A stretch of DNA of 39,129 nt from contig JAJDWF010000076.1 of assembly GCA_022825745.1 (NCBI GenBank), forward strand, positions 1 through 39,129, in the 5' to 3' direction. Source of the DNA: Dehalococcoidia bacterium (lineage in GTDB: Bacteria; Chloroflexota; Dehalococcoidia; Lucifugimonadales; UBA3495). Below, piece after piece: positions 6,273 through 26,134 of the stretch; the stretch's first letter is position 1; each line of letters opens with the position of its first letter. The notes beneath the pieces are model-generated. The model searched no databases, was not told the origin of the DNA, and saw only the letters and a list, made by a program, of their open reading frames with translations. Position numbers and translations under genes: made by a program.

Positions 6273-8762
6273 TCAGTTGCCGAACTGGGGCGCTTCGGTG
6301 ATTTCGCGCAGGGTTCCTTCCGTAACGTACACTCGGAAGCTGGTGGAATGCATGTCGTCGCTGCTGCAAGCCGTGTCGTACACAGTGCCAGGACAGCGAC
6401 CTACGGCCTCGTCGGTCTGGTAGGTTACGGGGCCTACGTAATAGCATTCGCCCGGAATGACTTCCCGCAGTTCTTCCCTGGGGATAGTTTTACTGAACTC
6501 CAGCAATATCGCATTTTGCGCGTTCTCAATGGTGGCGCTAGGCCGGTCGGCCAGGTACATCCAGTATTGCTGCCGGGCCTCGTCGCCTACAAAGCAGCCG
6601 GAGACGTATTGATCGACGCCGGGCGCGCGGGACAGGTGGCCGGGAGGAGGCCCCCGCTGCGCCAGCATTGCCGGGTCCGGGTAGGGCGGTGGCGTGGGGG
6701 TGGGCGGGATGGCAACCACCGCCAATTCGCCGACCACGGCGGACCTATCGCCCACGGTGGCCGAGATGTGGTGGACGCCGGCGGCCATTATGGCCGGAAC
6801 CGCTATATTCTCGATCAGTGCGTCGCCGTTCACGTCGGTAGTGATGGTTCGGTCGCCCAGGATATCGTAGCCCTGAATGCTGACTCCATGCACCAGCGTG
6901 TAGGGCGGGAATCCGGTCAACCTCACGGCTACGGTTTCCCCGGGAAAAGCCGTGGCCGGCAGCACGTTTAAAACGGGGGCCGGAGTGGGTGCAACGACCG
7001 CAGTGGGCGGTGGCGTCGGGGTCGGCGTAGGTTCCGGTGTAGCTGTGGGCTCGGGCGTGTTGGTGGGGACCGGTGTCGGCGTGGGTTCCGGCGTATTCGT
7101 AGGGACTGGCGTAGGTGTGGGTTCCGGGGTGTCGGTGGCCACCGGCGCCGCTGCCGGGACGGGCGCGGGAGAGTCGGTCGGAACGACGAGCGGAACTGCG
7201 GCAGCCGCGCCGCCGGCTGCTGAAGCAACGTTGGCGCCGCCCCCGTTGCTCGCCTCTTGCAAGCTTCTTTCAAAGCTCCAATCTTGCCATTCCCGGTAGC
7301 CCGCTGCGCCCATACCGACCAGGATGAATAAGCCAAGCAGCGAAGCCGCGCCAATGGCAGCGTAGCGTCGCCTGGCGTTGGAACTGCTGAACTGGCTCCT
7401 GGCCGGAACCAGGAAGATGAACGCCGCCCCCACGCCTAACCCCAGCCACAGCCACCATGGCCAAACGGATATGGCCGCTCCGATCAGTCCCAGCAAGAAC
7501 CAGAAGCTGACCAGCGACGCGACGCCGATCACGATCCAGCGCTGCCTGGTGATGGGAGATTCCAGCAGCCTTCGAACCGGGAAGTAGAAGAACAGCCCCG
7601 CTAACACGAGCAGCGATATCCACCAGAAGGGCCGGAACTGCTCGAAGAACATGAGGGGCATCAACGCCCCGTAGCCGGCCACCGCCGACAGCCACAGCGG
7701 CCAGTCGTAACCGGAAGGAGTGTAATAGCGTCGCGGACCCGGCGCCGGCGATGGCGACGGCCGTGGAGTACGCCCCGGCGCCGGCGATGGACCTGACGAT
7801 GGCGACTGCGAAGGCGAGGGAGCCGGGACTGCCGGCATTTCCAGCAGGGCTTGCACCCACTCTTCCGGCGTGGGCCGGGGGTCATCTTTGTGCGCCCGGT
7901 CGAAGCAGCGCAGGAACAGCTCCTTCTGCTTGTCGGTCAGGCTGTCCCAAGCGTCGTTGTAGGGCGCAGGGGCAGTGAGGCCGGGGTCTGCCGGGGGAAA
8001 CAGCCAGGCGCTGATCCGGTCGCCGGGCAGCGTAACGTTGGGCCGGTTGGTGACGGTGTAGGGATGGTAGCCGGTGAGCAGGTGGAAGATGACCACGGCC
8101 AGGCCGAAGCGGTCATGATTCTGGGTACGGTTGGCGTAGTCGCCCTGGGCTTCCGGGGCCTGAAACTCGGGACGCCCCATGCCGTTGGAAAAGGAGCGGC
8201 CGGTGGCGGAGTCGGTGAAACCGTAGGAATCGCAGTCCACCATGGCGATGTCGTTCTGCCGGTTGACCTCGACGTTCTTCTCGTTGACGTCGCCGATGAC
8301 GTAACCGGCGTCATGAACGGCGTTGAAGCCCAGAGCCAGGTTGCGCGCCATGCGCACGCGGTCGTCAATCTGTATCTCGCGGGCTTGCGCCGCCCCGGTG
8401 CCCTGGGCCGCCCGGCGGTTGTAATACTCGACGATGGGTTCCCAGGATTCGCCGGGGTTGAGCGTGGGCATGGTGTAGCCGACGATGATTCCGCTCTCCC
8501 GGACTTCGTGCTGGGGCCAGGTGATGTGCCAGGTTACGCCCAGCCCGGGCTGTACCGGGTGGCTTACCAGGTGGCTGATTTTGGCGTCGGCGTCCTGGGG
8601 CGTCCGGCCCGGGTGCCAGATTTTAACCACCGAGCCGGGGTCATCGTCCACCAGGTGAACCACGCCCTCGCCGCCCTCGCCCAGCTTTTGGCCCGGCACG
8701 ACGGGGTTGCCGCTTTCGTCCACGAAGCGGCGGCCGGAGAGGGGATTGGATGAGGTAGTCAT
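6273..8762 (-). CDS. Transmembrane Ser/Thr-kinase-like receptor (YegI-like), kinase of the TerY-P-type module
   Basis: 829 residues. The cytoplasmic kinase domain spans about 24-310: glycine loop LGEGGEGVV (28-35), Lys48 in VVKIW, catalytic Asp158 in IGDVNEKN, Asn163, the metal Asp176 in VDCD instead of DFG, and APE at 202-204. The variant catalytic loop and DCD resemble E. coli YegI-type kinases. A Pro-Ser linker (311-345) leads to about five membrane segments (355-490), which would place the C-terminus outside the cell. Then come a Pro-Thr stalk (545-587), an Ig-like beta region (595-690), and a terminal domain with four or five Cys that could form disulfides. It is the last gene of the PP2C/vWA operon, 35 bp after the TM2 gene. 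Its ATG has no clear ribosome site and a small hairpin lies just upstream. Substrates are unknown; the phosphatase and vWA neighbours are likely partners. Confidence 0.85.
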   Translation of the reverse strand: MTTSSNPLSGRRFVDESGNPVVPGQKLGEGGEGVVHLVDDDPGSVVKIWHPGRTPQDADAKISHLVSHPVQPGLGVTWHITWPQHEVRESGIIVGYTMPTLNPGESWEPIVEYYNRRAAQGTGAAQAREIQIDDRVRMARNLALGFNAVHDAGYVIGDVNEKNVEVNRQNDIAMVDCDSYGFTDSATGRSFSNGMGRPEFQAPEAQGDYANRTQNHDRFGLAVVIFHLLTGYHPYTVTNRPNVTLPGDRISAWLFPPADPGLTAPAPYNDAWDSLTDKQKELFLRCFDRAHKDDPRPTPEEWVQALLEMPAVPAPSPSQSPSSGPSPAPGRTPRPSPSPAPGPRRYYTPSGYDWPLWLSAVAGYGALMPLMFFEQFRPFWWISLLVLAGLFFYFPVRRLLESPITRQRWIVIGVASLVSFWFLLGLIGAAISVWPWWLWLGLGVGAAFIFLVPARSQFSSSNARRRYAAIGAASLLGLFILVGMGAAGYREWQDWSFERSLQEASNGGGANVASAAGGAAAAVPLVVPTDSPAPVPAAAPVATDTPEPTPTPVPTNTPEPTPTPVPTNTPEPTATPEPTPTPTPPPTAVVAPTPAPVLNVLPATAFPGETVAVRLTGFPPYTLVHGVSIQGYDILGDRTITTDVNGDALIENIAVPAIMAAGVHHISATVGDRSAVVGELAVVAIPPTPTPPPYPDPAMLAQRGPPPGHLSRAPGVDQYVSGCFVGDEARQQYWMYLADRPSATIENAQNAILLEFSKTIPREELREVIPGECYYVGPVTYQTDEAVGRCPGTVYDTACSSDDMHSTSFRVYVTEGTLREITEAPQFGN
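7005..7130 (-). repeat. Tandem 36-bp repeats coding for a Pro-Thr stalk in the kinase
   Basis: The coding strand repeats a 36-bp unit specifying NTPEPTPTPVPT-like 12-mers about three times, with decayed copies at both ends. It encodes the extracellular stalk of the kinase receptor at residues 545-586. Similar Pro-Thr stalks occur in the lipoprotein gene at 24317. On the opposite strand the repeat produces an open frame rich in Gly-Val, which is an artefact. Confidence 0.8.
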
Positions 8763-8769
8763 GGTCGGT

Positions 8770-8782
8770 CGCGTTTGACGCG
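8770..8782 (-). promoter_or_regulatory. Small hairpin just before the kinase start
   Basis: CGCGT-TTG-ACGCG gives a perfect 5-bp stem with a 3-base loop, ending 8 bp upstream of the kinase ATG at 8760-8762, where a ribosome site would lie. No clear Shine-Dalgarno sequence is present. It could lower translation of the last gene of the operon, but a stem this short can arise by chance. Confidence 0.25.
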
Positions 8783-8797
8783 CTTATCACTAGGCGG

Positions 8798-9487
8798 CTA
8801 GAACCAAAGTCTCTGACCGGTTATGTACTCCTGCCGGAACTCAAGGTCGGTCTTGGACAAGTACCGTAAGCCTTCGGCCACGCCGATAGTGATGGACGCT
8901 ACCAGGGCAATGGGACCGACGAAGGACAGGACCAAAATATACAGGAAGATGATCAGCCCGATCACCGCCAGCGAGAGGAGTATGCCCAACACGAGCACCA
9001 CGCATCCTAATGAGCACCAACCGTCGTCGTCATCGTCATCATCGTCGGATCGACGCCGGCGTCTTCCCCCTCTGCGCCGCCGGTTTCTCCACCGCCGCCA
9101 CTGCCGCTCCTCTTCCTCGTCGCCCATCATGTTCGATCCCATCCCGACCACTCGGAACGTGTACCGGAGCAACCGCCACGGCCACAGGAGCAGCCGGGCC
9201 GGGTTCACGATCTCGCGCACCGTGTGCCCGAAATGGAACCGCCGGACATAGACATAGCCGAACAGGATGAGCGCCCACGCGGCGATATACACGGCAATGA
9301 GGTCGCCGGTTGGCGCGAAGAACTGGGCGGCCAGCGCCGCCACTCCCACCAGCGTAAGGGCGGCGTGAATAGCGGCAACGTGGTTATGGCCAAGATAAAA
9401 CTTGTGAATCCCGGTCCAACCCAGAAAAATTGCCAGATAGGCAGCGACCGTCCGGCGTTTCGGACCTGCTGGGAACATGGACGTCAT
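8798..9487 (-). CDS. TM2-domain membrane protein with an Arg/Asp-rich loop
   Basis: 229 residues. The N-terminal TM2 domain (about 12-90) has the family pattern FLGWTGIHKFYLGH followed by hydrophobic helices. A cytoplasm-facing loop (about 123-156) has an acidic EEEE patch, then a run rich in Arg and Trp, then eight consecutive Asp residues. One long or two short membrane segments follow (about 160-205), then a polar tail ending in RLWF. The function of TM2 proteins is not established; they often sit next to signalling or stress genes. The position inside the PP2C/vWA/kinase operon, 12 bp after one vWA gene and 35 bp before the kinase, suggests a membrane anchor or adaptor for the module. That role is an inference. 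Confidence 0.8.
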   Translation of the reverse strand: MTSMFPAGPKRRTVAAYLAIFLGWTGIHKFYLGHNHVAAIHAALTLVGVAALAAQFFAPTGDLIAVYIAAWALILFGYVYVRRFHFGHTVREIVNPARLLLWPWRLLRYTFRVVGMGSNMMGDEEEERQWRRWRNRRRRGGRRRRRSDDDDDDDDGWCSLGCVVLVLGILLSLAVIGLIIFLYILVLSFVGPIALVASITIGVAEGLRYLSKTDLEFRQEYITGQRLWF

Positions 9488-9499
9488 AACTGCCTGCCT

Positions 9500-10159
9500 T
9501 TACAGGAAGTTCTGCTGGGGCAGCCGGATGCTCTGGCCCGGCTGGGACTGGGACACGGCGGCCACGGAGCGGGACAGCCATTGAATTGAACCGTCCAGTT
9601 GGTCCATGCTGGTCAGCGGCACAGCTGGCCTAGGCAGAGTGGCGGACAGTGCCTCGGCGCCTCCGCCGATGACGAAAGAGAAGAAAGCGACACCGCGATT
9701 CTCCTCCATTTCGATTAGACGGGCAGCGGTGCGTCGGTTAAGCGCACCGGCGCCGTCGGTAAGAAAATAGGCCAGGCTGCGATAATAGGCGATGCCGCCG
9801 TCCCGGTAGCTCTGCTTGCGCGCCTCGATGAGGTCTAGGGCCAGGTTGATGCCAGCGCCGAAATTAGTGTAGCCGCTCGCCCGGAGGCGAGGAGGCTTGA
9901 AGTCCGTGCCGTTGGTGAAGTCCTGCGCCACCGACGCTGAATCATTAAAAGCAACGACGGCTACGTCGGCCCGCAGCGCGGTGACCGGGTCTTCGCGGAT
10001 GATGTCGCCGAACTTGACCAGAGCCTCATTGACCGTTGCAATGGGCGCGCCGCTCATGGAGCTGGACACGTCCAGAATCAGGACGATGGAGCACCGGGCT
10101 TCGGGGTTCTCGGCGAATTCGGCGGTGTCGTACACGCCAACCGAGTCTCGAATGCTCAT
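9500..10159 (-). CDS. TerY-like von Willebrand factor A protein, paralogue 1
   Basis: 219 residues, all one vWA domain without signal peptide or membrane segment. The metal-ion-dependent adhesion site is complete: DVSSS (Asp30, Ser32, Ser34), a Thr in GYTNFGAG, and an Asp in FLTDGAG. TerY/YegL-like vWA proteins are soluble partners of PP2C phosphatases and kinases. The C-terminus SIQWLSRSVAAVSQSQPG is nearly the same in all three paralogues here. A GGAGG precedes the ATG at 10159. It is the shortest copy: the segment after the third metal-site loop is trimmed compared with the others. It lies 18 bp behind paralogue 2 and 12 bp before the TM2 gene, in one transcription unit. Confidence 0.88.
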   Translation of the reverse strand: MSIRDSVGVYDTAEFAENPEARCSIVLILDVSSSMSGAPIATVNEALVKFGDIIREDPVTALRADVAVVAFNDSASVAQDFTNGTDFKPPRLRASGYTNFGAGINLALDLIEARKQSYRDGGIAYYRSLAYFLTDGAGALNRRTAARLIEMEENRGVAFFSFVIGGGAEALSATLPRPAVPLTSMDQLDGSIQWLSRSVAAVSQSQPGQSIRLPQQNFL

Positions 10160-11011
10160 TGTTGGCCTCCATCCGCTCTAGAAGTCCAGGTAGTCGGGTT
10201 CCGGCAGGCGTATGGCCTCGCCGGGCTGGGACTGGGACACGGCGGCCACCGAGCGGGACAGCCACTGGATGGATCCTTCCAGCTGTTCCATGTTGGTCAG
10301 CTCGATGGCCGCGCGGGGCGCCAGCTCGTTGAGCGCCGACATATCGACGGGAAGGTCCGGCGAGCCGATGCCGAAGCAGAAGAAGGCGATACCGCGGCTC
10401 TCCTCCGCCGCTTTCAGACGGTCCGCGGCTTTGGACAGCTCGCTGGCGTCGTCGTGCTCCGGGTAGCCGTCGCTGAGGAAGTAGGCCAGGCTGCGGTAGT
10501 AGGCGATGCCGCCGTCCCGGTAGCTCTGCTTGCGGGCCTCGGTAATGTCCAGGGCCAGGTTGACGGCCTTGGAGTAGTTGGTGCCGCCTTTGACGGACAG
10601 CGTGGGCGGTTCAAAGTCGGTGCCGTTGGTGAAGTCCTGCACTACGCGGGCATCATGGTCGAACTCGATGATGGCCACGTCGGCGCGGAGCGCGGTAACC
10701 GAGTCCTCCTTGATGATCTCGCCGAACTTGACCAGGGCCTGGTTCACGGTCTGCATTTTGAGCCCGCCCATGGATCCGGACACGTCCAGGATCAGGACGA
10801 TGGAACACCGGGCCTCCGGGTTGTCGGCGAATTCGGCCTGGTCATATACGCCTACGGTATCTTGTATGCTCATTGCTGGTCCTCCTTATCTTTGGAATTA
10901 AGGATCTTTGAAATTCAGGGTCTAGAAATTCAGGTAATCGGGTTGGGGCAGTCGGATGCTCTCCCCGGGCTGGGACTGGGACACGGCGGCCACCGAGCGG
11001 GACAGCCACTG
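9541..11011. repeat. Near-identical DNA blocks shared by the three vWA genes
   Basis: Two blocks recur in each vWA gene. The C-terminal block starts CTGGGACTGGGACACGGCGG and lies at about 9542-9580, 10226-10267 and 10970-11011. A mid-domain block containing GATGCCGCCGTCCCGGTAGC lies at about 9769-9827, 10483-10541 and 11428-11486. Synonymous sites are also nearly unchanged within the blocks while flanking coding sequence has diverged, which points to recent exchange between the copies or unusually strong constraint. The interval spans the first to the last C-terminal block. Confidence 0.75.
10178..10873 (-). CDS. TerY-like von Willebrand factor A protein, paralogue 2
   Basis: 231 residues, a single cytoplasmic vWA domain. 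Metal-site residues are complete: DVSGS (Asp30, Ser32, Ser34), the Thr in GGTNYSKA and the Asp in FLSDGYP. It shares long identical stretches with paralogues 1 and 3, notably KQSYRDGGIAYYRSLAYFL and the C-terminal SIQWLSRSVAAVSQSQPG, and ends in LDF. An AAGGAGG stands about 7 bases before the ATG at 10873. The 18-bp and 48-bp gaps to its neighbours place it in the same operon. It is the closest of the three to a plain TerY/YegL protein; its ligand is unknown. Confidence 0.88.
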   Translation of the reverse strand: MSIQDTVGVYDQAEFADNPEARCSIVLILDVSGSMGGLKMQTVNQALVKFGEIIKEDSVTALRADVAIIEFDHDARVVQDFTNGTDFEPPTLSVKGGTNYSKAVNLALDITEARKQSYRDGGIAYYRSLAYFLSDGYPEHDDASELSKAADRLKAAEESRGIAFFCFGIGSPDLPVDMSALNELAPRAAIELTNMEQLEGSIQWLSRSVAAVSQSQPGEAIRLPEPDYLDF

Positions 11012-11896
11012 AATGGAACCTTCCAACTGCGCCATGTTGTTCAATACCACCGGTGGGCGGGGCGCGAGCCTGGAAAGCTCACCCACCGCGGTTCGCATGA
11101 TGCCGGCGCTGACGCACCGCTCAATGATGTCCGGCACGCTGGCGTCCACCAGTTCGGCGACCCGGTATAAATTGAGTCCCCTGGCGCCTTCGGCGCCGTG
11201 TCCAAAGGCGCCGGCCGCGGTGAGTTCTTCGTCACTGATGCCAATCAGCTTGAAGAAATCATCAAGTTTATCGCCATCAACGCCCCACTCGGGTATGCCG
11301 TCGTCCCCACTGATTATGAAGGAGAAGAACGCGACGCTGCGATTTTCCTCGGCGGCGGCCAGGCGTTGGGCCGCCTGAGCCAAAGGGCCGGGATAGTCGT
11401 TGACCGGAAGGCCGTCGGTGAGGAAGTAGGCCAGGCTGCGATAATAGGCGATGCCGCCGTCCCGGTAGCTCTGCTTGCGCGCCTCGATAATGTCCAGCGC
11501 CTGGTTGACGGCGACGGAGAATTTCGTGCCGAACAATAATTTGCTGGAAGGGTATAAAGCCAGCAGATCCCTTTCCCTATACTGAGCATAGGTCGCCCGG
11601 TCTTTTGGAGTGGAACAGTAGAGGACCGGGGCCTCGAAATCCGTGCCGTTGACGAAATCCTGTACCACCCGCGCGGTACCCGTGAAGGCAATGACGGCTA
11701 TATCGGCCCGCAAGGCAGTGACCGAGTCTTCCCGGATCATCTCCTGGAACTTGAACAGGGCCTGGTTCACCGTGTCAATCTTGGCGCCCTCCATGGACTC
11801 GGACACGTCGAGAATGAGGACGATGGGGCACCGCGCCTCCGGGTTGTCGGCGAATTCCGACTGGTCGTACACGCCTATGGTGTCGTGGATGGTCAT
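10922..11896 (-). CDS. TerY-like von Willebrand factor A protein, enlarged paralogue 3
   Basis: 324 residues. The core vWA domain matches the two downstream paralogues: DVSES metal motif at Asp30, KQSYRDGGIAYYRSLAYFL, the Asp in FLTDGLP, and the same C-terminal SIQWLSRSVAAVSQSQPG. Two insertions make it about 95 residues longer. One (near residues 92-118) sits before the second metal loop, which reads GTKFSVAV rather than GxTNxxxA. The other (near 200-275) sits in the second half of the domain. A GGAGGGTAAC precedes the ATG. As the first vWA gene after the phosphatase (18-bp gap) it may be a specialised ligand-binding version; this is an inference from the insertions only. Confidence 0.86.
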   Translation of the reverse strand: MTIHDTIGVYDQSEFADNPEARCPIVLILDVSESMEGAKIDTVNQALFKFQEMIREDSVTALRADIAVIAFTGTARVVQDFVNGTDFEAPVLYCSTPKDRATYAQYRERDLLALYPSSKLLFGTKFSVAVNQALDIIEARKQSYRDGGIAYYRSLAYFLTDGLPVNDYPGPLAQAAQRLAAAEENRSVAFFSFIISGDDGIPEWGVDGDKLDDFFKLIGISDEELTAAGAFGHGAEGARGLNLYRVAELVDASVPDIIERCVSAGIMRTAVGELSRLAPRPPVVLNNMAQLEGSIQWLSRSVAAVSQSQPGESIRLPQPDYLNF

Positions 11897-11914
11897 GGCG
11901 GTTACCCTCCGGTT

Positions 11915-12706
11915 TCAGCCGGCGCGGGCAGCAATGGCGATGGTAACGTCGTCGGTGGTGCGCGACTGCACCCGCTCGCCGCTGATGAAGGCGTGGAGCC
12001 GTTCGGGGACGGCTTCCGGTTCGTCGGTGTGGACCAGGTCGTTCAGCATCGGGTTCCAGAAGCCGAGGAACGCTTCGCGTTCCGGCATCTTGAGGGCCAG
12101 GTTCTGCAAGCCGTCGGTAATCAGCGCCAGGGCGTCGTAATCATGGGCGGAGGCATGGCCCACGTCGGCTATGCTGTCCGGCTGTGATCGGGAAGTGATG
12201 AAGGTAGTCTCGTTAGCGTACTCGCCGGTGTGAGCGTCGCACAGGGTTCTGGCCTCGCCGCTGCCGATGTTGAAGGCGATAACGGCGCCGTCGCCCACCT
12301 GCGCGGCGGTCACGAGGTCGTCGCTGGCAAAGGCAACGATGAGGGTTGATGCCAGTTCCCGCACCGGGACGCCATGTCGCAGGCCGTAACGCTCCACCGA
12401 GATTCGGGCCTGCTTAACGGCGTCGCGCGCCAGGGACTCGGCCAGGCGCTCGCCAAAAGCCGCCGCCGGCTGTCGGTTGATGCCGTCAACAATCGTGGCG
12501 ACGGCGGCGTCCACGGCAGTACGGGAACCCTCGTCGGAACGGGGGGCGGAGCCGGCCCCGTCGGCGACGGCGGCCACTATGATTTCGCCGATGCCGACTT
12601 CGACCAGCCGGCAGGCCACCGCATCCTGGTTGGGGAGAGCATCCCTAAGGTGCGAACTGCCCGGAGCAGTTGCCGTTGCGATACGCCAGCGGTGTTTGCC
12701 AGACAT
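11915..12706 (-). CDS. PP2C-family Ser/Thr protein phosphatase (YegK-like)
   Basis: 263 residues, a soluble phosphatase domain. Metal-binding motifs are in order: NQDA (Asp28), VADGAGSA (Asp49-Gly50), VGDGAV (Asp139), ITDGL (Asp198) and TTDDVT (Asp252-Asp253). These enzymes remove phosphate from Ser/Thr using two or three Mg/Mn ions. The start is supported by GGGAGGTGAG directly before the ATG at 12706. It is the first gene of the minus-strand operon and lies 18 bp before the enlarged vWA gene. The pairing of PP2C, vWA and a YegI-like kinase is the signature of the TerY-P triad, so it probably opposes the kinase at the end of the operon. Confidence 0.88.
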   Translation of the reverse strand: MSGKHRWRIATATAPGSSHLRDALPNQDAVACRLVEVGIGEIIVAAVADGAGSAPRSDEGSRTAVDAAVATIVDGINRQPAAAFGERLAESLARDAVKQARISVERYGLRHGVPVRELASTLIVAFASDDLVTAAQVGDGAVIAFNIGSGEARTLCDAHTGEYANETTFITSRSQPDSIADVGHASAHDYDALALITDGLQNLALKMPEREAFLGFWNPMLNDLVHTDEPEAVPERLHAFISGERVQSRTTDDVTIAIAARAG

Positions 12707-12762: not shown

Positions 12763-12888
12763 CGCTATGAGTCCATAGCAAATAGAATAAGCGCGAGGGC
12801 GAGAGGTTAGTCGCGCGCGCAAGTACATTTCCTTGCGCCGATTGGGTTGTCGTGATAGGTTCCACGTATTGCTCCAGGAGGAATGAAT

Positions 12889-14946
12889 ATGCGCCCCGCC
12901 GGATGGTTAGCAGTCTGTATCCTGACGTTGTGCCTGTTTGCGCTGTTGGGATGTACCCCGGAGGTGGTCCGGGAGGAAGTGGTCCGTGAGGTGGAAGTAG
13001 TGGTCACGGCCACGCCCGGGCCCGGCGGATCCGCCCAAACCGGGCAAACGTCCGCGCCGGTCGGCCAGGCTCCCGACCCGACGCCGGGCCAGCAAGCCGC
13101 CTCGACAACGCAGCCGGCTGCGGCAACGCCGGCACCACCCACAACCACAGACGCGACCGAAAACGTTTACCAACTGGGCATTTCGGCGGACCTGACCACG
13201 ACCAACTACTGGGCGTACCTGGGACCCGACGGCACGATTTGGAACCTGTACGTGCTGGGCGGCGGCAAGCCCGTCCTGTACACGTACTCGGCGCAGCGGT
13301 TCGACTGGGTGCCGTCGCTGGCGGCGGATTTCCCGACGGCACTGGCGGAGGAAACCGTGGGCGGCCAGACCTTCTGGACCACCGAGGTTCCTCTGAAACA
13401 GGGGGTGAAGTGGAGCGACGGCAACGACGTCACCGCCGAGGATTTCGCCTTCACCGCGCATACGGCGGCCGAGCTGGAGCTCTCCGGCAACTGGCCGTCC
13501 ATAGTGGACCCCGAGTTCTTCGACCATGCGGAGGCGCTGGACCCATACCGGCTCAAGATATTCTTCAAGCAAAAGCCGGGGCTGGCGCGCTGGCAGTTCG
13601 GCCAGGCCTTCATGCCCATCCTCTCCAAGGCGTATTGGGAGCCGGTGGTGGCGGAGGCCAAACAGGCGGGCGAGATTATCGAGCAGCAGAAAGCGCTGTA
13701 CGCGCACGTTCCGGAGAACGAGCCGACGGCCGGGGGATTCGGATTCAGCAAGTGGGAGCGCGGCGCCTTCGCGGAAAAGGAACGGAACCCCGACTACTAT
13801 TTCGCCGACAGCACGGTGACGCAGTACGCCAGCGGCGCGTACGCCGAATCCAAGCCGGGGGCCTACGAGTTTGCGGCATACGGCGCGCCGGGCGGCGACA
13901 AGACGCTGGAGTACACGACGGGGCCCTACGCGGACAGCGCCATCTACTCGATCTACGGAAGCCAGGACGCCACGGTGCTGGCCCTGAAAAAGGGCGACAT
14001 CGACTTCATGCTGAACCCGCTGGGATTGTCGCGAGGCTTGCAGGAACAACTGGAGGGAGAGGACGGGCTGACCGTGATCGAAAATCCGTCCACCGGCGTG
14101 CGCTACCTGGGGTTCAACTTCCGCAGGGAACCGATGGACAATAAGGCGTTCCGCCAGGCGGTGGCGACGCTTATCGACAAGGAATTTCTGACCAGCACCG
14201 TATTGCAGGGCGTGGCCATCCCCATGTACACCATGGTGCCCGAGGGCAACGTGGCCTGGTACAACGCGGACGTACCGCTGATCGGGCAGGGGTTGAGCCG
14301 GGGCGAGCGTATCGCCCAGGCCGTGCAGATGCTCAAGGATGCCGGGTTCACCTGGGAGACGGAGCCCAGGATCAGCGAGGACGGCAGGTTCGTCGAGCAG
14401 CCGGGCGAGGGGTTGAAAATGCCCAACGGCGAGCCGGTTCCCGAGATGGACATCCTGGCGCCCAGTCCCGGCTACGATCCCTTGCGTTCCACCTTCGCCA
14501 TCTGGATCGAGCGGTGGCTGAACGAGGTAGGCATTCCCGTGCGAGCCGACTTGACCGGGTTCAACCTGATCGTGGAAAAGGTGTTTGACCAGCAGGACTT
14601 CGACATGTGGATACTCGGCTGGAGGCTGACCCTCTATCCCGACTACCTGGAGGCGTTCTTCCACAGCCGGCATGCCGGTCTGGAGGGACACAACGCCGGG
14701 GGCTACAACAACCCTGAGTTCGACCGGCTGGCCGACCAACTGCTGGCGGAGACGGACGTGGAAACGGCGCGGCAGCAGGTCTTCGAGATGCAGGCGTTCC
14801 TGGCGGATGACCTCCCCTACGTGGTGCTGTTCGACACGCCGCTGGTGGAGGCCTACCGCAGCGACCGGATTACATACCCGTACACCGATTCGCTGGGCGG
14901 GCTGCAGAACGCCTCGGGGTTGACGACGCTGGTGCAGTTCAAGTAG
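12889..14946 (+). CDS. ABC-transporter substrate-binding lipoprotein, peptide/nickel family 5
   Basis: 685 residues. It would capture oligopeptides or a similar solute outside the cell and deliver it to the permeases encoded next. The signal peptide ends in the lipobox LLGC (Cys22). The mature start EVVREEVVREVEVVVTATPG and a Gln/Pro/Thr linker are a common Chloroflexota pattern. The family-5 fold follows, with KQGVKWSDGNDVTAEDFAFT, then NKAFRQAVATLIDK and a late WILGWRL segment. AGGAGG at 12876-12881 lies only one base before an ATG at 12883 but seven bases before the in-frame ATG at 12889, so 12889 is chosen. The permease gene follows after 26 bp. The true ligand cannot be read from sequence. 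Confidence 0.9.
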   Translation: MRPAGWLAVCILTLCLFALLGCTPEVVREEVVREVEVVVTATPGPGGSAQTGQTSAPVGQAPDPTPGQQAASTTQPAAATPAPPTTTDATENVYQLGISADLTTTNYWAYLGPDGTIWNLYVLGGGKPVLYTYSAQRFDWVPSLAADFPTALAEETVGGQTFWTTEVPLKQGVKWSDGNDVTAEDFAFTAHTAAELELSGNWPSIVDPEFFDHAEALDPYRLKIFFKQKPGLARWQFGQAFMPILSKAYWEPVVAEAKQAGEIIEQQKALYAHVPENEPTAGGFGFSKWERGAFAEKERNPDYYFADSTVTQYASGAYAESKPGAYEFAAYGAPGGDKTLEYTTGPYADSAIYSIYGSQDATVLALKKGDIDFMLNPLGLSRGLQEQLEGEDGLTVIENPSTGVRYLGFNFRREPMDNKAFRQAVATLIDKEFLTSTVLQGVAIPMYTMVPEGNVAWYNADVPLIGQGLSRGERIAQAVQMLKDAGFTWETEPRISEDGRFVEQPGEGLKMPNGEPVPEMDILAPSPGYDPLRSTFAIWIERWLNEVGIPVRADLTGFNLIVEKVFDQQDFDMWILGWRLTLYPDYLEAFFHSRHAGLEGHNAGGYNNPEFDRLADQLLAETDVETARQQVFEMQAFLADDLPYVVLFDTPLVEAYRSDRITYPYTDSLGGLQNASGLTTLVQFK

Positions 14947-19584: not shown

Positions 19585-20337
19585 CTAGGCTTGAACGTCG
19601 CGCAGGCGGCGGAGTCGGTCTTCCAACTCGCGGACGCGGGCTTCAGCAGTGTCGGCGCGGGCTTCGGCGGCGTTGGCGCGGGCTTGTTCGCTGTCGGCGC
19701 GAGCCAGCTGGTCGGCATAGGTGAGGATGGGCCGGTTGGTGGCCGGGTCGTAGAACGCCAGCACGCCGGCCTCCCATCGGAGGTGCAGGTTGAGGACGGG
19801 GCTGTAGCCCTGCAAGCTGCCGTCCGCCAACTCGTCAATCCGCATTGGCTGATAAGCGTTACCCACCAGCAGGTCGCCGGCCAGCCGGGTCCCGTGATGC
19901 TGCCCAGTCTGGTCAAAGCGCCAATACTCGGGTATTCCCATGCGGGCGTAGTCGTCTCGTTTCGCCCCGGTATCCGTGCCCCCGGTGCTCGCCGAGGCCA
20001 CTTCCAGGACGAAGTCCGGCGGCTTGCCCTGCTCGGAGATGATGTAACCGTTGGTGTCCCGGTACAACTCCGGGTCCACGCCAAAGGCGACCATCAGGTC
20101 GGGATAGCGTGCCAGGTCGCGGAAAGTGCCGGGTTCGACGATAATCCAGCGGTCGGCGGTTACCAAGGTGGTTGGCAAGTTGCCCAGGTGCTGGATCAGG
20201 TGGTGAGCGTGGCCGGGATCGAACAGTTGGTCATATTGAGTCACTTCGTCAGGCTCTCGTTCGGGTATGTCCGGCAGCCGGAAGCGGTCCGGAGTCTGGC
20301 GGATGTTGGCAATGGTATTGGGTTTGGCGGTGGTCAT
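19585..20337 (-). CDS. Uma2-family (DUF820) putative restriction-endonuclease-fold protein
   Basis: 250 residues. The fold is PD-(D/E)xK nuclease-like: PPDFVLEVAS provides the acidic pair and TGAKRDDYARMGIPEYWRFD provides the Lys and the family signature. The N-terminal part (HAHHLIQHLGNL, then ADRWIIVEPGTFRDLARYPD) is also typical. The C-terminal 45 residues form an Ala/Arg/Glu-rich coiled coil (heptads of ARA/AEA), seen in many Uma2 proteins. The biological role of Uma2 proteins is unclear; they are abundant and mobile in cyanobacteria and Chloroflexota. The gene stands alone between two transporter loci and is bracketed by a 16-bp direct repeat, so it may be a later arrival. The ATG at 20337 is the likely start. 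Confidence 0.85.
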   Translation of the reverse strand: MTTAKPNTIANIRQTPDRFRLPDIPEREPDEVTQYDQLFDPGHAHHLIQHLGNLPTTLVTADRWIIVEPGTFRDLARYPDLMVAFGVDPELYRDTNGYIISEQGKPPDFVLEVASASTGGTDTGAKRDDYARMGIPEYWRFDQTGQHHGTRLAGDLLVGNAYQPMRIDELADGSLQGYSPVLNLHLRWEAGVLAFYDPATNRPILTYADQLARADSEQARANAAEARADTAEARVRELEDRLRRLRDVQA

Positions 20338-20455: not shown

Positions 20456-20471
20456 GGGACTGCGGCCGGCT
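20456..20471. repeat. Right copy of the 16-bp direct repeat flanking the Uma2 gene
   Basis: GGGACTGCGGCCGGCT, 15 of 16 bases equal to the copy at 19568-19583. Its last two bases fall in the stop codon of the iron-type permease (20470-20472). The repeats enclose about 870 bp carrying only the Uma2 gene. Confidence 0.55.
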
Positions 20472-22122
20472 ATTCCCGGCGGCGTTCCTCGCGCATGGTG
20501 ATGAGGGCCAGCGGGATTGATGAGACCGCCACCAGCAGCAGGGCGGGAGCGGCGGCGCGGGCGAAGAATGCTTCCTCGGCGGCGGCCCAGATGGAGGACG
20601 CGAGAGTGGTGAATCCGATGGGGCTGAGGATGAGAGTGGCGGGCAGTTCCTTCATGGTGAGGAGGAACACCAGCGCGGCGCCGGTCAGGATGCCGGGCCG
20701 GATCAGCGGCAGGGTGATGGTAAGCAGCACGGTGAGCGGCCGCTTGCCCAGGCTGCGGGCGGCGTCCTCAAACTCCGGGCGCACCTGCACCAGGGACGCG
20801 CGCAACGCGCCGACGGCTGCGGGCAGGAACAGGGTCACGTAAGCCACGGCCAGCATGGCCAGGGACTGGTAGAGCCAAGGCGCGTAGTTGGCGCCGAAAT
20901 AGACCAGGCCTAACGCGATGACGATGCCGGGCAGCGCGAAGCCGACGAATCCCAGGCGTTCCAACCAACGACTGAACTGGCCCGGGTAACGTATCGCCAG
21001 CACCGCGATGGGCGCGGCGCAAATCACCGTGAGGACCGCGGCCAGGGCGGAAACGCCCACCGAGTTGGCCGCCGCCCGCCAGAGCAGCAGCAACGGTTCG
21101 CCGGCCGCGACGCCCCGGACGGTCCAGTACACGAGCACGGCCACCGGCAGGCCGAGGGACACAAATGCCACCACGCCGCAATAGACCAGGGCCGGCCAGC
21201 GCCAGGAGCCCAGCGGCACCGGCTGGGGCAGTCGGGCCGCGCCGCCGCCGCTGAGGTAGTAACGACCGCCGCCGGCGTTGCGGGCGGTATGCTCACCCCA
21301 CACCACCACCAGCGCGAGGGCGATCAGCCCCAGCGACCAGGCTGCGGCCAGGGTGCGGTTGAGGGCCGCGCCGTACTGGATGAAGATGCTCCACGTGAAC
21401 GTTTCGTAGCGCATCATGGCCACCGCACCGAAGTCGCTCAGCGCATACAGGGCGGTGAGCAATCCGCCGGCGAGGATGGCCGGGCGCAGCATGGGCAGGG
21501 TCACGCTTCGAAAAGTCTGCCACCGGGTCCGGCCCAACGCGCGGGCGGACTCTTCGAGGGAGGTGTCCATGTTCCACAGGGAAGCGCGGATCGGAAGCAG
21601 CACGTAAGGAAAACTGATGATGATCAGCGTGAAGGCGGCACCGGGGAACCCGTAGATGCTGGGAATGCGGTCGATGGCTAGGGAAAACGGAGCAAAAGCC
21701 GCCTCCAGCCAACCCTGGAGGATGCCGCGCGGCCCCAAGCCCACCGCGATGGCGAATCCCACGATGTAAGACGGAAGCGCCAGGGGGAGCATGGTGACCA
21801 CGCGCCAGAATCCGCGAGCGGGCAGGTCGGTGCGGACGGTGAGCCAGGCCAGCGGCGCGGCGATGGCGATACAGCCCAGCATCACGGCGGCCATCAGCGC
21901 CACGGTGCGCCACACTACCCATAGAGTCCGGGGGCGGAAAATCAGGTCGATGGCCTCGGAGCCGGCGCCCAGGGTGCGCAGGACGAGATAAACCGGCGCG
22001 GTCAGCAGGAGGACGGCGATGACCAGTCCCGGGATCCAGATTATTGCGGGTGGGCGGGCCGTGCCCTCAAATAGCCAAGCCGACGGGGACCGGGGGATGG
22101 CTACGGACAGCTTTATGGACAC
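20470..22122 (-). CDS. Iron(III)-type ABC-transporter permease, fused double domain (FbpB/ThiP type)
   Basis: 550 residues with about 12 membrane segments, made of two homologous permease halves. Each half carries its own EAA coupling loop: EESARALGRTRWQTFRSVTL in the first half, and EFEDAARSLGKRPLTVLLTI in the second. This layout is typical of ferric iron (Fbp/Sfu/Afu), thiamine and related importers. It starts 3 bp after the DtxR-family gene and is in one unit with the ATPase gene further upstream; the regulator makes iron or manganese the likely cargo. No periplasmic binding protein is encoded in the window, so it must lie elsewhere. Its stop codon overlaps the right copy of the direct repeat. 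Confidence 0.88.
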   Translation of the reverse strand: MSIKLSVAIPRSPSAWLFEGTARPPAIIWIPGLVIAVLLLTAPVYLVLRTLGAGSEAIDLIFRPRTLWVVWRTVALMAAVMLGCIAIAAPLAWLTVRTDLPARGFWRVVTMLPLALPSYIVGFAIAVGLGPRGILQGWLEAAFAPFSLAIDRIPSIYGFPGAAFTLIIISFPYVLLPIRASLWNMDTSLEESARALGRTRWQTFRSVTLPMLRPAILAGGLLTALYALSDFGAVAMMRYETFTWSIFIQYGAALNRTLAAAWSLGLIALALVVVWGEHTARNAGGGRYYLSGGGAARLPQPVPLGSWRWPALVYCGVVAFVSLGLPVAVLVYWTVRGVAAGEPLLLLWRAAANSVGVSALAAVLTVICAAPIAVLAIRYPGQFSRWLERLGFVGFALPGIVIALGLVYFGANYAPWLYQSLAMLAVAYVTLFLPAAVGALRASLVQVRPEFEDAARSLGKRPLTVLLTITLPLIRPGILTGAALVFLLTMKELPATLILSPIGFTTLASSIWAAAEEAFFARAAAPALLLVAVSSIPLALITMREERRRE

Positions 22123-22125
22123 ACC

Positions 22126-22905
22126 CTACGTGAGTTCCTCGGGATCGGCCGGGCGCACAATGATTTGCCGCGCCACATTGTAGCCGATGGAGATGCTGTC
22201 CACTTCGGTCTGCACCTGCATCACGCCCAGGTAAGGCATGGCTTCCAGCAGGGTCATGCGACGACCCGGCACCAGGCGGGCGCCGTCCAGGAATTGCAAG
22301 AGTTGGGAATCTTCTTCCGGCACCCGGTCAACCACGTATGAGACGCCGTCGGTGGCGTTGTCCAGCGTGACCGCCCCCGGCGTGGCTCCCGGTGAGCCAT
22401 TGCCCGGAATCGGCCAGCCAAAGGGCGAGTGGGTGGGATGGCCCAACCGCTCCATCAGCTTGGCTTCCAGGGCAGGGGACATGCCGTGCTCCAGTTGGTG
22501 CGCCTCGATGTGGGCTTCGTGAAGTTCCATGCCGAGAAGCCGCACCACCAACCACTCTGCCAGCCGGTGACGGCGGGCGATGCTTTCGCCTTCCGTGGTT
22601 CCCCGGTCGGTGAGACGGATGCGCTTGTCGCTCCCGATGTCAACCAGGCCCTGCTTCTCCATGCGGCGCAGCATCCCGGCGACGGAGGGCACGGAGGTGC
22701 CCAGCCCCTCGGTGGGAGGCAGTTGGCGCAACGCTTCGGTCAGCCCGGTCAACGTGGGGACTTCGGAGTCCTCCCACATCTTGTAGAGCGAAAGGAGGTA
22801 GTTCTCCGTGACCGGCGACAGGCGTTCGGGTGCGTTGGAGGTTTCCGACTGAGCGTTGGTGTCGGACCTGGATTTTCGAGGACGCGCCACGTTATTTCCC
22901 AGCAC
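22126..22905 (-). CDS. DtxR/MntR-family metal-dependent transcriptional regulator
   Basis: 259 residues. An N-terminal tail (1-28) precedes a winged helix (about 29-105: SPVTENYLLSLYKMW, then SVPSVAGMLRRMEKQGLV). The metal-binding dimerisation domain follows (RRHRLAEW with His113 and Glu117; HIEAHQLEHGMS with His132, Glu139, His140), then a C-terminal FeoA/SH3-like domain (about 190-255). In DtxR and IdeR the residue at 136 is a Cys; here it is His, unlike both the iron type (Cys) and MntR (Glu). About eight extra residues (QLPPTEGLG) lengthen the turn of the helix-turn-helix. Such proteins repress uptake genes when bound to Fe or Mn. Lying between the ATPase (64-bp gap) and permease (3-bp gap), it probably regulates its own operon. 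Confidence 0.88.
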   Translation of the reverse strand: MLGNNVARPRKSRSDTNAQSETSNAPERLSPVTENYLLSLYKMWEDSEVPTLTGLTEALRQLPPTEGLGTSVPSVAGMLRRMEKQGLVDIGSDKRIRLTDRGTTEGESIARRHRLAEWLVVRLLGMELHEAHIEAHQLEHGMSPALEAKLMERLGHPTHSPFGWPIPGNGSPGATPGAVTLDNATDGVSYVVDRVPEEDSQLLQFLDGARLVPGRRMTLLEAMPYLGVMQVQTEVDSISIGYNVARQIIVRPADPEELT

Positions 22906-24316: not shown

Positions 24317-26134
24317 ATGCCGGAAAAGGCCATCGGCAGTGCCACACCGGTCAGGCTATGCGCCATATTGGCTTTGCTGGCGGCGATGCTGGCGACCGTG
24401 TTGGCCTGCACCGGGCCGGAGCCGACGCCGGTTCTCACCACGCCAGCGTTATCCGACGTGGCCCGGTCGCCCACCGAAGCGCCCATACCGCCGGTTCCTA
24501 CGGCAACCCCAACTTTGATGCCCACAACGACGGCTGAGCCGCCTAGTCCTGCTGCCACGCTCACTCCAACCCCAACTCCCACAGCTACGCCGGCGCCGAC
24601 CAACACTCCGCAACCGACGCCAACCAGTACGCCGCTCCCGACCCATACGCCCACGCCCACGGCCACCCCGGTTCCACCGACCAGTACGCCGTCACCCACG
24701 GCTACGGCGGTTCCACCAACAGCAACGCCGCGTCCTACCAGTACGCCAGCGCCGGCGCTGCCAACCGTCTCTCTCACCGACCTGGAGCACGTGGCGTGGC
24801 TTGAACAGAACAAACCGGCCCTGGCGAATCAACTCAAAGCCCTGCCGTGGGTTTCCGACGGCGTTGACGATAGCGAGCGCGAGGCCGCCGAGGCTCTGAT
24901 TGAGGCCGCCGTGTGGTATCCGGTTTCCTTCAGCGCGTTACTGGAAAAACCCTGGGTTGGCGACAGCATCACCCAACATGAAACCACAGCGATCAGAAGG
25001 ATACGTTGGGCCGCCAAGGACGCCCCCGAATTGGCCCAGGAGATATTGCAAAAGTCGTGGGTACAGGACGGAATTGCCAGGGACGAAGCGGCAGTAATCT
25101 ACTACCTTTATTGGACCGTCCGCGCGGAAGATGAGACTCTGCAACAGGCGGTCGTTGAAAAGGCTATCGAAATTCTGGCGATGCCGTTCCTGGACACCGT
25201 GGAGAGTCCCGACGCGCTGGCGGTGCGTTCGCTGGAGCGGTTCGAGGATGCGGGATCGGAAGCCTTCCTGGAGCTCATGTCCCACCCCACGCTCGGCGAC
25301 GGCATCACAGACGAGGAAGCCAAGACCGTCGTCCTGCTGGGCGCTACCAACGAGAAGAAGCCGGAATCCGTGCCCGTACTTCTTGACGGAAACGGCGTTT
25401 ACAGAGAAGAGCGGACTATCGATCTTCCCTACTCCGGCGAAACACTGCTCGCCGTCATCCGCCTGCGCAACCGGGTGAACGACAACATGAACAGACTGGA
25501 GCATGCCGTTCGCAGCGCCGAGGGTTTCATGGGCGAGTCGCTGACCACCAACTACGTCGCCTGGTACTTTGACGAAGCAACGTCATCCCCCACAACTCCC
25601 GGGACCAACTACCAAGCGCACATAACCTCGAAACCTTACTTCGATGATCCTAATGATGACCGTTGGTCCAACACGCCGCTCCACATCGCGCACGAAGTCG
25701 GCCATTACTATTGGACGGGCAGCAGCAACCAACGCTGGATCAGGGAAGGCGGCGCGGACCTGTTGGCTTACCTGTCTGAGAACGACCGCAGCGGGAGGCC
25801 GATAGAATCCCACCGCTCAGAATGCACCTTTTTCGACAACATCAGCGAGTTGGAAGCCGCTGACCCGGAGCGAGGAACCGACCAATACAGATGCTACTAC
25901 GCGTTGGGATCCAGGCTGTTCGTTGACCTATACCACAGTTTGGGCGCAGACACTTTCGAGCAAGGGTTCCGCAGCCTCTACTTGAAACGCCTACAGGACG
26001 ACCCTTACGACGACTGCGAAGGCACCGGGCTGGGCATCTGCCACGTGGAGGCGGCGTTCCGGGCGGGGGCGTCGGACGACGTCGCCGGAAGGGTGGACGA
26101 GGTGCTGGACCGCTGGTACGGGCCTCGACCCTGA
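24317..26134 (+). CDS. Surface lipoprotein with Pro-Thr stalk, helical repeats and a gluzincin-like metalloprotease domain
   Basis: 605 residues; not a named family that I recognise. The signal peptide ends at a lipobox (TVLAC, Cys31). Residues 51-148 are a Pro/Thr stalk. Five short repeats follow near 176, 211, 246, 289 and 323, each with a pattern like PWVxDGIxxxE then a hydrophobic helix (WVSDGV, WVGDSI, WVQDGI, FLDTV, TLGDGI); the first three are exactly 35 residues apart. The C-terminal part has HEVGH (459-463) and, 14 residues on, Glu477 in WIREGGADLLAYL, the arrangement of Peptidase_MA-like gluzincins. Zinc peptidase activity on the cell surface is therefore likely but inferred. It is divergent from the iron ABC operon and convergent with ubiE (18-bp gap). 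Confidence 0.75.
   Translation: MPEKAIGSATPVRLCAILALLAAMLATVLACTGPEPTPVLTTPALSDVARSPTEAPIPPVPTATPTLMPTTTAEPPSPAATLTPTPTPTATPAPTNTPQPTPTSTPLPTHTPTPTATPVPPTSTPSPTATAVPPTATPRPTSTPAPALPTVSLTDLEHVAWLEQNKPALANQLKALPWVSDGVDDSEREAAEALIEAAVWYPVSFSALLEKPWVGDSITQHETTAIRRIRWAAKDAPELAQEILQKSWVQDGIARDEAAVIYYLYWTVRAEDETLQQAVVEKAIEILAMPFLDTVESPDALAVRSLERFEDAGSEAFLELMSHPTLGDGITDEEAKTVVLLGATNEKKPESVPVLLDGNGVYREERTIDLPYSGETLLAVIRLRNRVNDNMNRLEHAVRSAEGFMGESLTTNYVAWYFDEATSSPTTPGTNYQAHITSKPYFDDPNDDRWSNTPLHIAHEVGHYYWTGSSNQRWIREGGADLLAYLSENDRSGRPIESHRSECTFFDNISELEAADPERGTDQYRCYYALGSRLFVDLYHSLGADTFEQGFRSLYLKRLQDDPYDDCEGTGLGICHVEAAFRAGASDDVAGRVDEVLDRWYGPRP
24467..24760 (+). repeat. Low-complexity Pro-Thr stalk coding region
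   Basis: About 98 codons, nearly all Pro, Thr, Ala, Ser or Val (for example PTPTPTATPAPTNTPQPT), encode the stalk of the lipoprotein. The style is close to the stalk of the kinase receptor at 7005-7130. It gives a Gly-Val-rich open frame on the opposite strand that is not a gene. Confidence 0.8.

Follow-up and report, generated by a model that had tools for sequence, protein, structure and literature searches.

Triads of the YegL/PphC/YegI type are widespread, yet to our knowledge their input and output remain unclear. In Escherichia coli, YegI is a membrane-bound Ser/Thr kinase that autophosphorylates and is dephosphorylated by PphC (YegK) (PMC13232886). The TerY-P triads of Anantharaman et al. 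(2012), following the account in PMC11090510, combine a vWA protein, a PP2C phosphatase and a YegI-type kinase in one operon, and the same paper reports their association with tellurite resistance. In addition, stand-alone defence has been attributed to TerY-P-like modules with an OB-fold kinase, and TerY-P accompanies Type II and III-A CoCoNuTs, some of which have two vWA genes (PMC11090510). In archaea, the kinase ArnC phosphorylates the vWA protein ArnB, switching its complex with ArnA; this network (ArnB vWA, ArnA FHA, ArnC kinase and PP2A) offers a vWA protein as a phosphorylation-controlled adaptor, but its proteins and the system differ from those described below and the analogy is mechanistic only (PMC12852372).

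We analysed a 39,129-nucleotide stretch of DNA from a Dehalococcoidia bacterium (the window), which carries a run of six minus-strand genes transcribed in the order PP2C, vWA1, vWA2, vWA3, TM2 and kinase, with successive gaps of 18, 48, 18, 12 and 35 bp. All six received a Pfam assignment (PP2C_2, 3.4e-42; VWA, 4.5e-5, 6e-13 and 2e-7; TM2, 1.1e-9; Pkinase, 6e-8). The tight run with gaps of 12-48 bp reported by a first-pass annotation was found to be correct, with every open reading frame present. Pairwise dN/dS values against relatives were 0.03-0.32 for the genes and for the kinase and head domains, and 0.30-0.44 for the transmembrane/linker stretch of the kinase; the low values indicate that the six frames are real genes under constraint. 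An oligopeptide-type ABC transporter operon (SBP_bac_5, two permeases and two ATPases) diverges 176 bp upstream, its binding-protein gene lying at 12883-14946, and a ketopantoate-reductase-like gene converges on the kinase gene 6 bp downstream. Promoter-like sites were no commoner in our scan than in shuffled sequence, and the terminator-like sites found fell within genes. Elsewhere in the window, a DtxR-type iron-dependent repressor with a FeoA domain (22126-22905) adjoins a membrane transport gene (20470-22122), and a tRNA-Ala(GGC) at 25184-25260 falls within an open frame of 605 aa (24317-26134), which is therefore probably not a gene over its full length.

All three core proteins are homologous to those of E. 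coli, and the kinase is membrane-bound in both. The window PP2C is 32% identical to PphC over its full length (E 1e-30), the vWA family matches YegL (hhalign 100%, 36% identity), and the kinase matches YegI (hhalign 100%, 29% identity over 293 columns). However, the E. coli set has one vWA gene, the order yegL-pphC-yegI and no TM2 gene, whereas the window has three vWA genes, PP2C first and a TM2 gene; past the kinase domain, E. coli YegI continues, as read from its sequence, with a CPWC pair and a helix-hairpin-helix-like stretch, whereas the window kinase has a predicted outward head. The window shares the one-operon triad with the TerY-P systems described in PMC11090510, but differs from that description in that no TerD was found, the kinase has no cytoplasmic Zn ribbon, PP2C comes first, and extra vWA genes and a TM2 gene are present. 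With CoCoNuT-associated and stand-alone defence TerY-P (PMC11090510) it has in common the core triad and also the vWA duplication, but no restriction or helicase partners were found nearby and the kinase C-terminus is predicted to lie outside.

The named relatives that we compared are Chloroflexota/Dehalococcoidia metagenome bins, one of them labelled SAR202, and the labels of several suggest an origin in marine sponges. We found vWA, PP2C and kinase genes next to one another at all 16 kinase-bearing loci examined in the genus and family genomes plus the window, one PP2C gene being cut by a contig end. Scanning the named genomes for the kinase gave 55 loci from many phyla, 48 of them outside the window's type; all three triad genes occur together at 35 of these 48, and of the other 13, eight retain two of the three genes, and contig ends truncate several. 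The order is vWA-PP2C-kinase in each of the 35 complete loci, and PP2C comes first in all eight loci of the window's type, an arrangement seen, among the genomes examined, only in the window's genus. The window thus departs from the usual order, which is typical of triads rather than strictly defining. Random adjacency was rejected, since the recurrence among relatives shows that the vWA/PP2C/kinase neighbourhood is not due to chance. Homology to YegL, PphC and YegI together with the conserved adjacency identifies the locus, at the level of sequence, as a true TerY-P/YegL-PphC-YegI triad, in agreement with its earlier description as an expanded module of this kind. The genes do co-occur in relatives; in the genomes examined, TM2 and the placing of PP2C first are both confined to one Dehalococcoidia genus, TM2 being present in five of its eight loci of this type.

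The kinase gene (6273-8762) encodes a YegI-type Ser/Thr kinase domain, predicted to be cytoplasmic (residues 1-310; 7833-8762; Pfam, alignment and YegI hhalign), a membrane region of about five hydrophobic helices (residues 355-487; 7296-7698), a predicted extracytoplasmic stalk (6690-7278) that combines a Thr/Pro-rich linker with an Ig-like beta-sandwich (about residues 596-690), and finally, at the C-terminus, head E1, delimited by alignments (residues about 691-829; 6273-6690). The domain retains the Gly loop (28-33), K47, D158/N163, D176/D178 and the helix-F Asp D217, and across 13 aligned kinases the key residues do not vary; the catalytic loop, GDVNEKN, is non-canonical, with N replacing the lysine of HRDxK. 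As Arg-rich loops lie on alternate sides of the helices, the Thr/Pro-rich C-terminal part should lie outside, and on a positive-inside reading of hydropathy alone the C-terminus would be extracytoplasmic; no cytoplasmic Cys cluster was found in the window kinase. In an AlphaFold2 model of residues 591-829, the Ig-like part had pLDDT values of 71-89 and Foldseek matched it to Ig-like and CARDB folds; the outer part of the kinase of one relative, G006, contains an FN3 module. Head E1 gave no Pfam or PDB-sequence match and its model is of low confidence with an unreliable fold; strand order looked suggestive of an OB fold, but on these grounds none is claimed. E1 contains four Cys residues (723, 773, 790 and 799), but since the G006 head lacks the first of the conserved Cys residues, disulfides in E1 are not certain. 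The first-pass annotation was right in describing a transmembrane receptor-like kinase, which is real and conserved, but not in treating a membrane kinase as foreign to the basic triad, as YegI is itself membrane-bound (PMC13232886). A hydrophobic segment also follows the kinase domain in many triad kinases of other phyla, and the membrane kinase was accordingly discarded as a unique feature.

Other triad kinases in these genomes end differently. For example, one kinase of the genus (L058:8011-10020) ends in tandem TPR repeats rather than a membrane head, and a second triad type in the family (L062:5528-7981; also L061, L063 and L064) has a kinase that carries, as fused parts, two zinc-ribbon-like stretches and a full ADP-ribosylglycohydrolase domain (Pfam 1.5e-51 in L062). 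Fusions of the latter type suggest that TerY-P switches are connected with ADP-ribosylation.

The PP2C-family Ser/Thr phosphatase (263 aa; 11915-12706) is the first gene of the operon, and its metal-ligand motifs NQDA, ADGAGS, TDG and DDVT were all found. The three vWA genes encode proteins of 324 aa (vWA1, TerY/YegL type; 10922-11896), 231 aa (vWA2; 10178-10873) and 219 aa (vWA3; 9500-10159), and the MIDAS residues (DxSxS, T and D) are intact in all three, as had been claimed. vWA1 carries a lineage-specific helical insert of about 65 aa (about residues 200-267) and a smaller one (96-122); its AlphaFold2 model (mean pLDDT 86) shows a vWA fold with the helical insert modelled at high confidence, and its Foldseek matches are vWA domains. 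The most conserved paralogue is vWA2 (99% identity to G009; dN/dS 0.03), a short copy resembling it being present in all eight loci of the window's type, in which vWA copy number ranges from one to three. Third copies are more diverged, and the extra copies at the vWA3 position in G006 and G012 have a partly degenerate MIDAS. A EARKQSYRDGGIAYYRSLAYFL block containing YYR (with at most one substitution) and a SIQWLSRSVAAVSQSQPG tail are common to all three paralogues, the other loops being different. Gene conversion among the three genes was considered but is not claimed, there being no near-identical stretches of synonymous codons. The threefold vWA expansion, put forward as a departure from the basic triad, did not prove to be one and was dropped as a unique feature, because two other Chloroflexota triads with the usual gene order have multiple vWA genes, three in L136 and two in L135. 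In these distant triads (L136:986-6968 and L135:1897-6678) the tandem vWA genes are followed by an unusually long PP2C gene (633-699 aa).

The TM2-domain protein (229 aa; 8798-9487) has about four hydrophobic helices, an Arg-rich/Asp-rich middle loop and a conserved C-terminal block ending in WF. Full-length relatives were found in five of 50 family genomes searched, all five at window-type loci, and no TM2-like protein was found at the other triad loci examined. The proposed TM2 partner gene is thus real and conserved, but as it is missing from three of the eight window-type loci it is not essential. Between the window and G009, dS is 1.2 for TM2 and about 0.3 for PP2C, vWA2 and the kinase domain, and the TM2 block therefore appears to have been exchanged too. 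In G004 a gene resembling the Uma2 family, as judged by eye, lies between TM2 and kinase (L051:7713-8540), and DNA similar to this insert occurs in the window at 19998-20283.

We found that the head is replaceable. In G004, G012, G010 and G013, E1 is replaced by a head, E2, that is 19-22% identical to it and keeps GC..G, CY and one further Cys; between 8764 and 7252 the kinase genes of the window and G004 match at 80% DNA identity, and past that point they are unalignable. The kinase tree pairs G006, which has E1, with G012, which has E2; G004 (E2) in turn branches as the sister of G011, the window and G009 (all E1). At least three head changes are therefore needed, counted by hand, with one of the branches behind the count having support of 89/87. 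The reverse was observed between G006 and G005/G002, which match in both flanks (79-86%) and at the head-coding end (67-70%), the remaining triad DNA being unrelated apart from one weak vWA stretch; the kinase domains of G005 and G002 are only about 35% identical to that of the window. In a search of 393 genomes from the class, no E1 or E2 head was found outside the genus, the sole match being the window's own genome.

The module also occupies one or other of two alternative chromosomal sites. Site 1, beside the transporter operon, holds the module of the window, G009, G006, G005 and G002, all with head E1; site 2, between glyA and the gene for a conserved 335-aa protein, holds that of G004, G012, G010, G013 and G011, the last in pieces on two contigs and with head E1. 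The site-2 flanking genes are 0.8 kb apart in the window's own genome and 2.2-2.4 kb apart in G009, G006, G005 and G002, leaving too little room for a triad. No PP2C match was obtained in three of the 14 genus genomes (G003, G007 and G008), from which the module therefore appears to be absent. We conclude that the module is a genuine receptor-type version of a known triad, and that it is both conserved and mobile.

We consider it reasonably probable that the six genes encode a phospho-switch of the YegL/PphC/YegI (TerY-P) kind, in a receptor-type version anchored in the membrane. With the precedents of YegI/PphC and ArnB/ArnC, the simplest model would be a head-tuned kinase with PP2C reset and vWA adaptors or substrates. 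The outer head may sample the cell exterior and the membrane helices relay its state inward to a presumably active YegI-type kinase, the phosphorylation being reset by PP2C. The three vWA proteins, which we infer to be metal-dependent adaptors or substrates, might dock to the kinase/phosphatase core through their shared surfaces (the YYR block and the tail); as their other regions differ, each would be an adaptor or phospho-substrate coupling the one switch to a partner of its own. To this complex TM2 would add an accessory membrane subunit. Against this model, the vWA proteins may be structural, and some extra copies in relatives have a degenerate MIDAS.

A bolder reading, doubtful but by no means negligible, is that of a two-site, mix-and-match diversifying surface receptor kinase built on a TerY-P switch, its heads, bodies and TM2/vWA parts being recombined within one genus because the target of the head (phage, animal host or rival) keeps changing. 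An anti-phage or DNA-processing module, like the stand-alone TerY-P-like or CoCoNuT-associated systems (PMC11090510), would agree with the reshuffling and with the accessory nature of the locus, given the three genus genomes that gave no PP2C match. However, PADLOC models matched only the generic kinase fold and none of the vWA, PP2C or TM2 proteins; the flanking genes that were scanned included no nuclease, helicase or McrBC gene; and the window kinase lacks the cytoplasmic Zn-ribbon or OB-fold C-terminus of those systems, terminating in a predicted outward head. A defence role is therefore unlikely. The invariance of the remaining key kinase residues, the retention of a phosphatase with its metal-ligand motifs and the activity of YegI, which has a related loop and is reported as active (PMC13232886), also make quite improbable a membrane scaffold with a catalytically weak kinase, in which the vWA proteins, TM2 and the head would serve adhesion or assembly and phosphorylation would be vestigial, even though the catalytic loop is non-canonical, and Ig-like and (in G006) FN3 modules are typical of surface proteins.

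That the module is an accessory sensor of the adjoining oligopeptide transporter, its head sensing the substrate or the binding protein, is suggested by the five triads that adjoin this operon, all with E1. But six genomes (G001 included) in which the transporter gene has no adjoining triad and any triad lies elsewhere retain the binding protein at 78-85% identity, and G011 bears E1 beside glyA; a functional tie is weakened by both observations, and we regard it as very improbable. The least credible explanation, a tellurite or metal stress (Ter) response, draws on the family name, the intact MIDAS sites and the association with tellurite resistance given in PMC11090510. TerD was absent from the window's own genome and from 15 relatives (16 of 16 genomes searched), and the earlier link to tellurium-resistance-type stress systems is not supported on this account.

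For the receptor-type switch that we favour, the novelty lies in a modular receptor design in which outer head, inner body and chromosomal site have each been exchanged, as for a swappable sensor. These exchanges, which the first-pass annotation had no means of seeing, are the most informative features of the locus. The natural swaps, with different heads on near-identical kinases and different bodies under one head type, represent ready-made pairs for the study of head sensing and vWA coupling.
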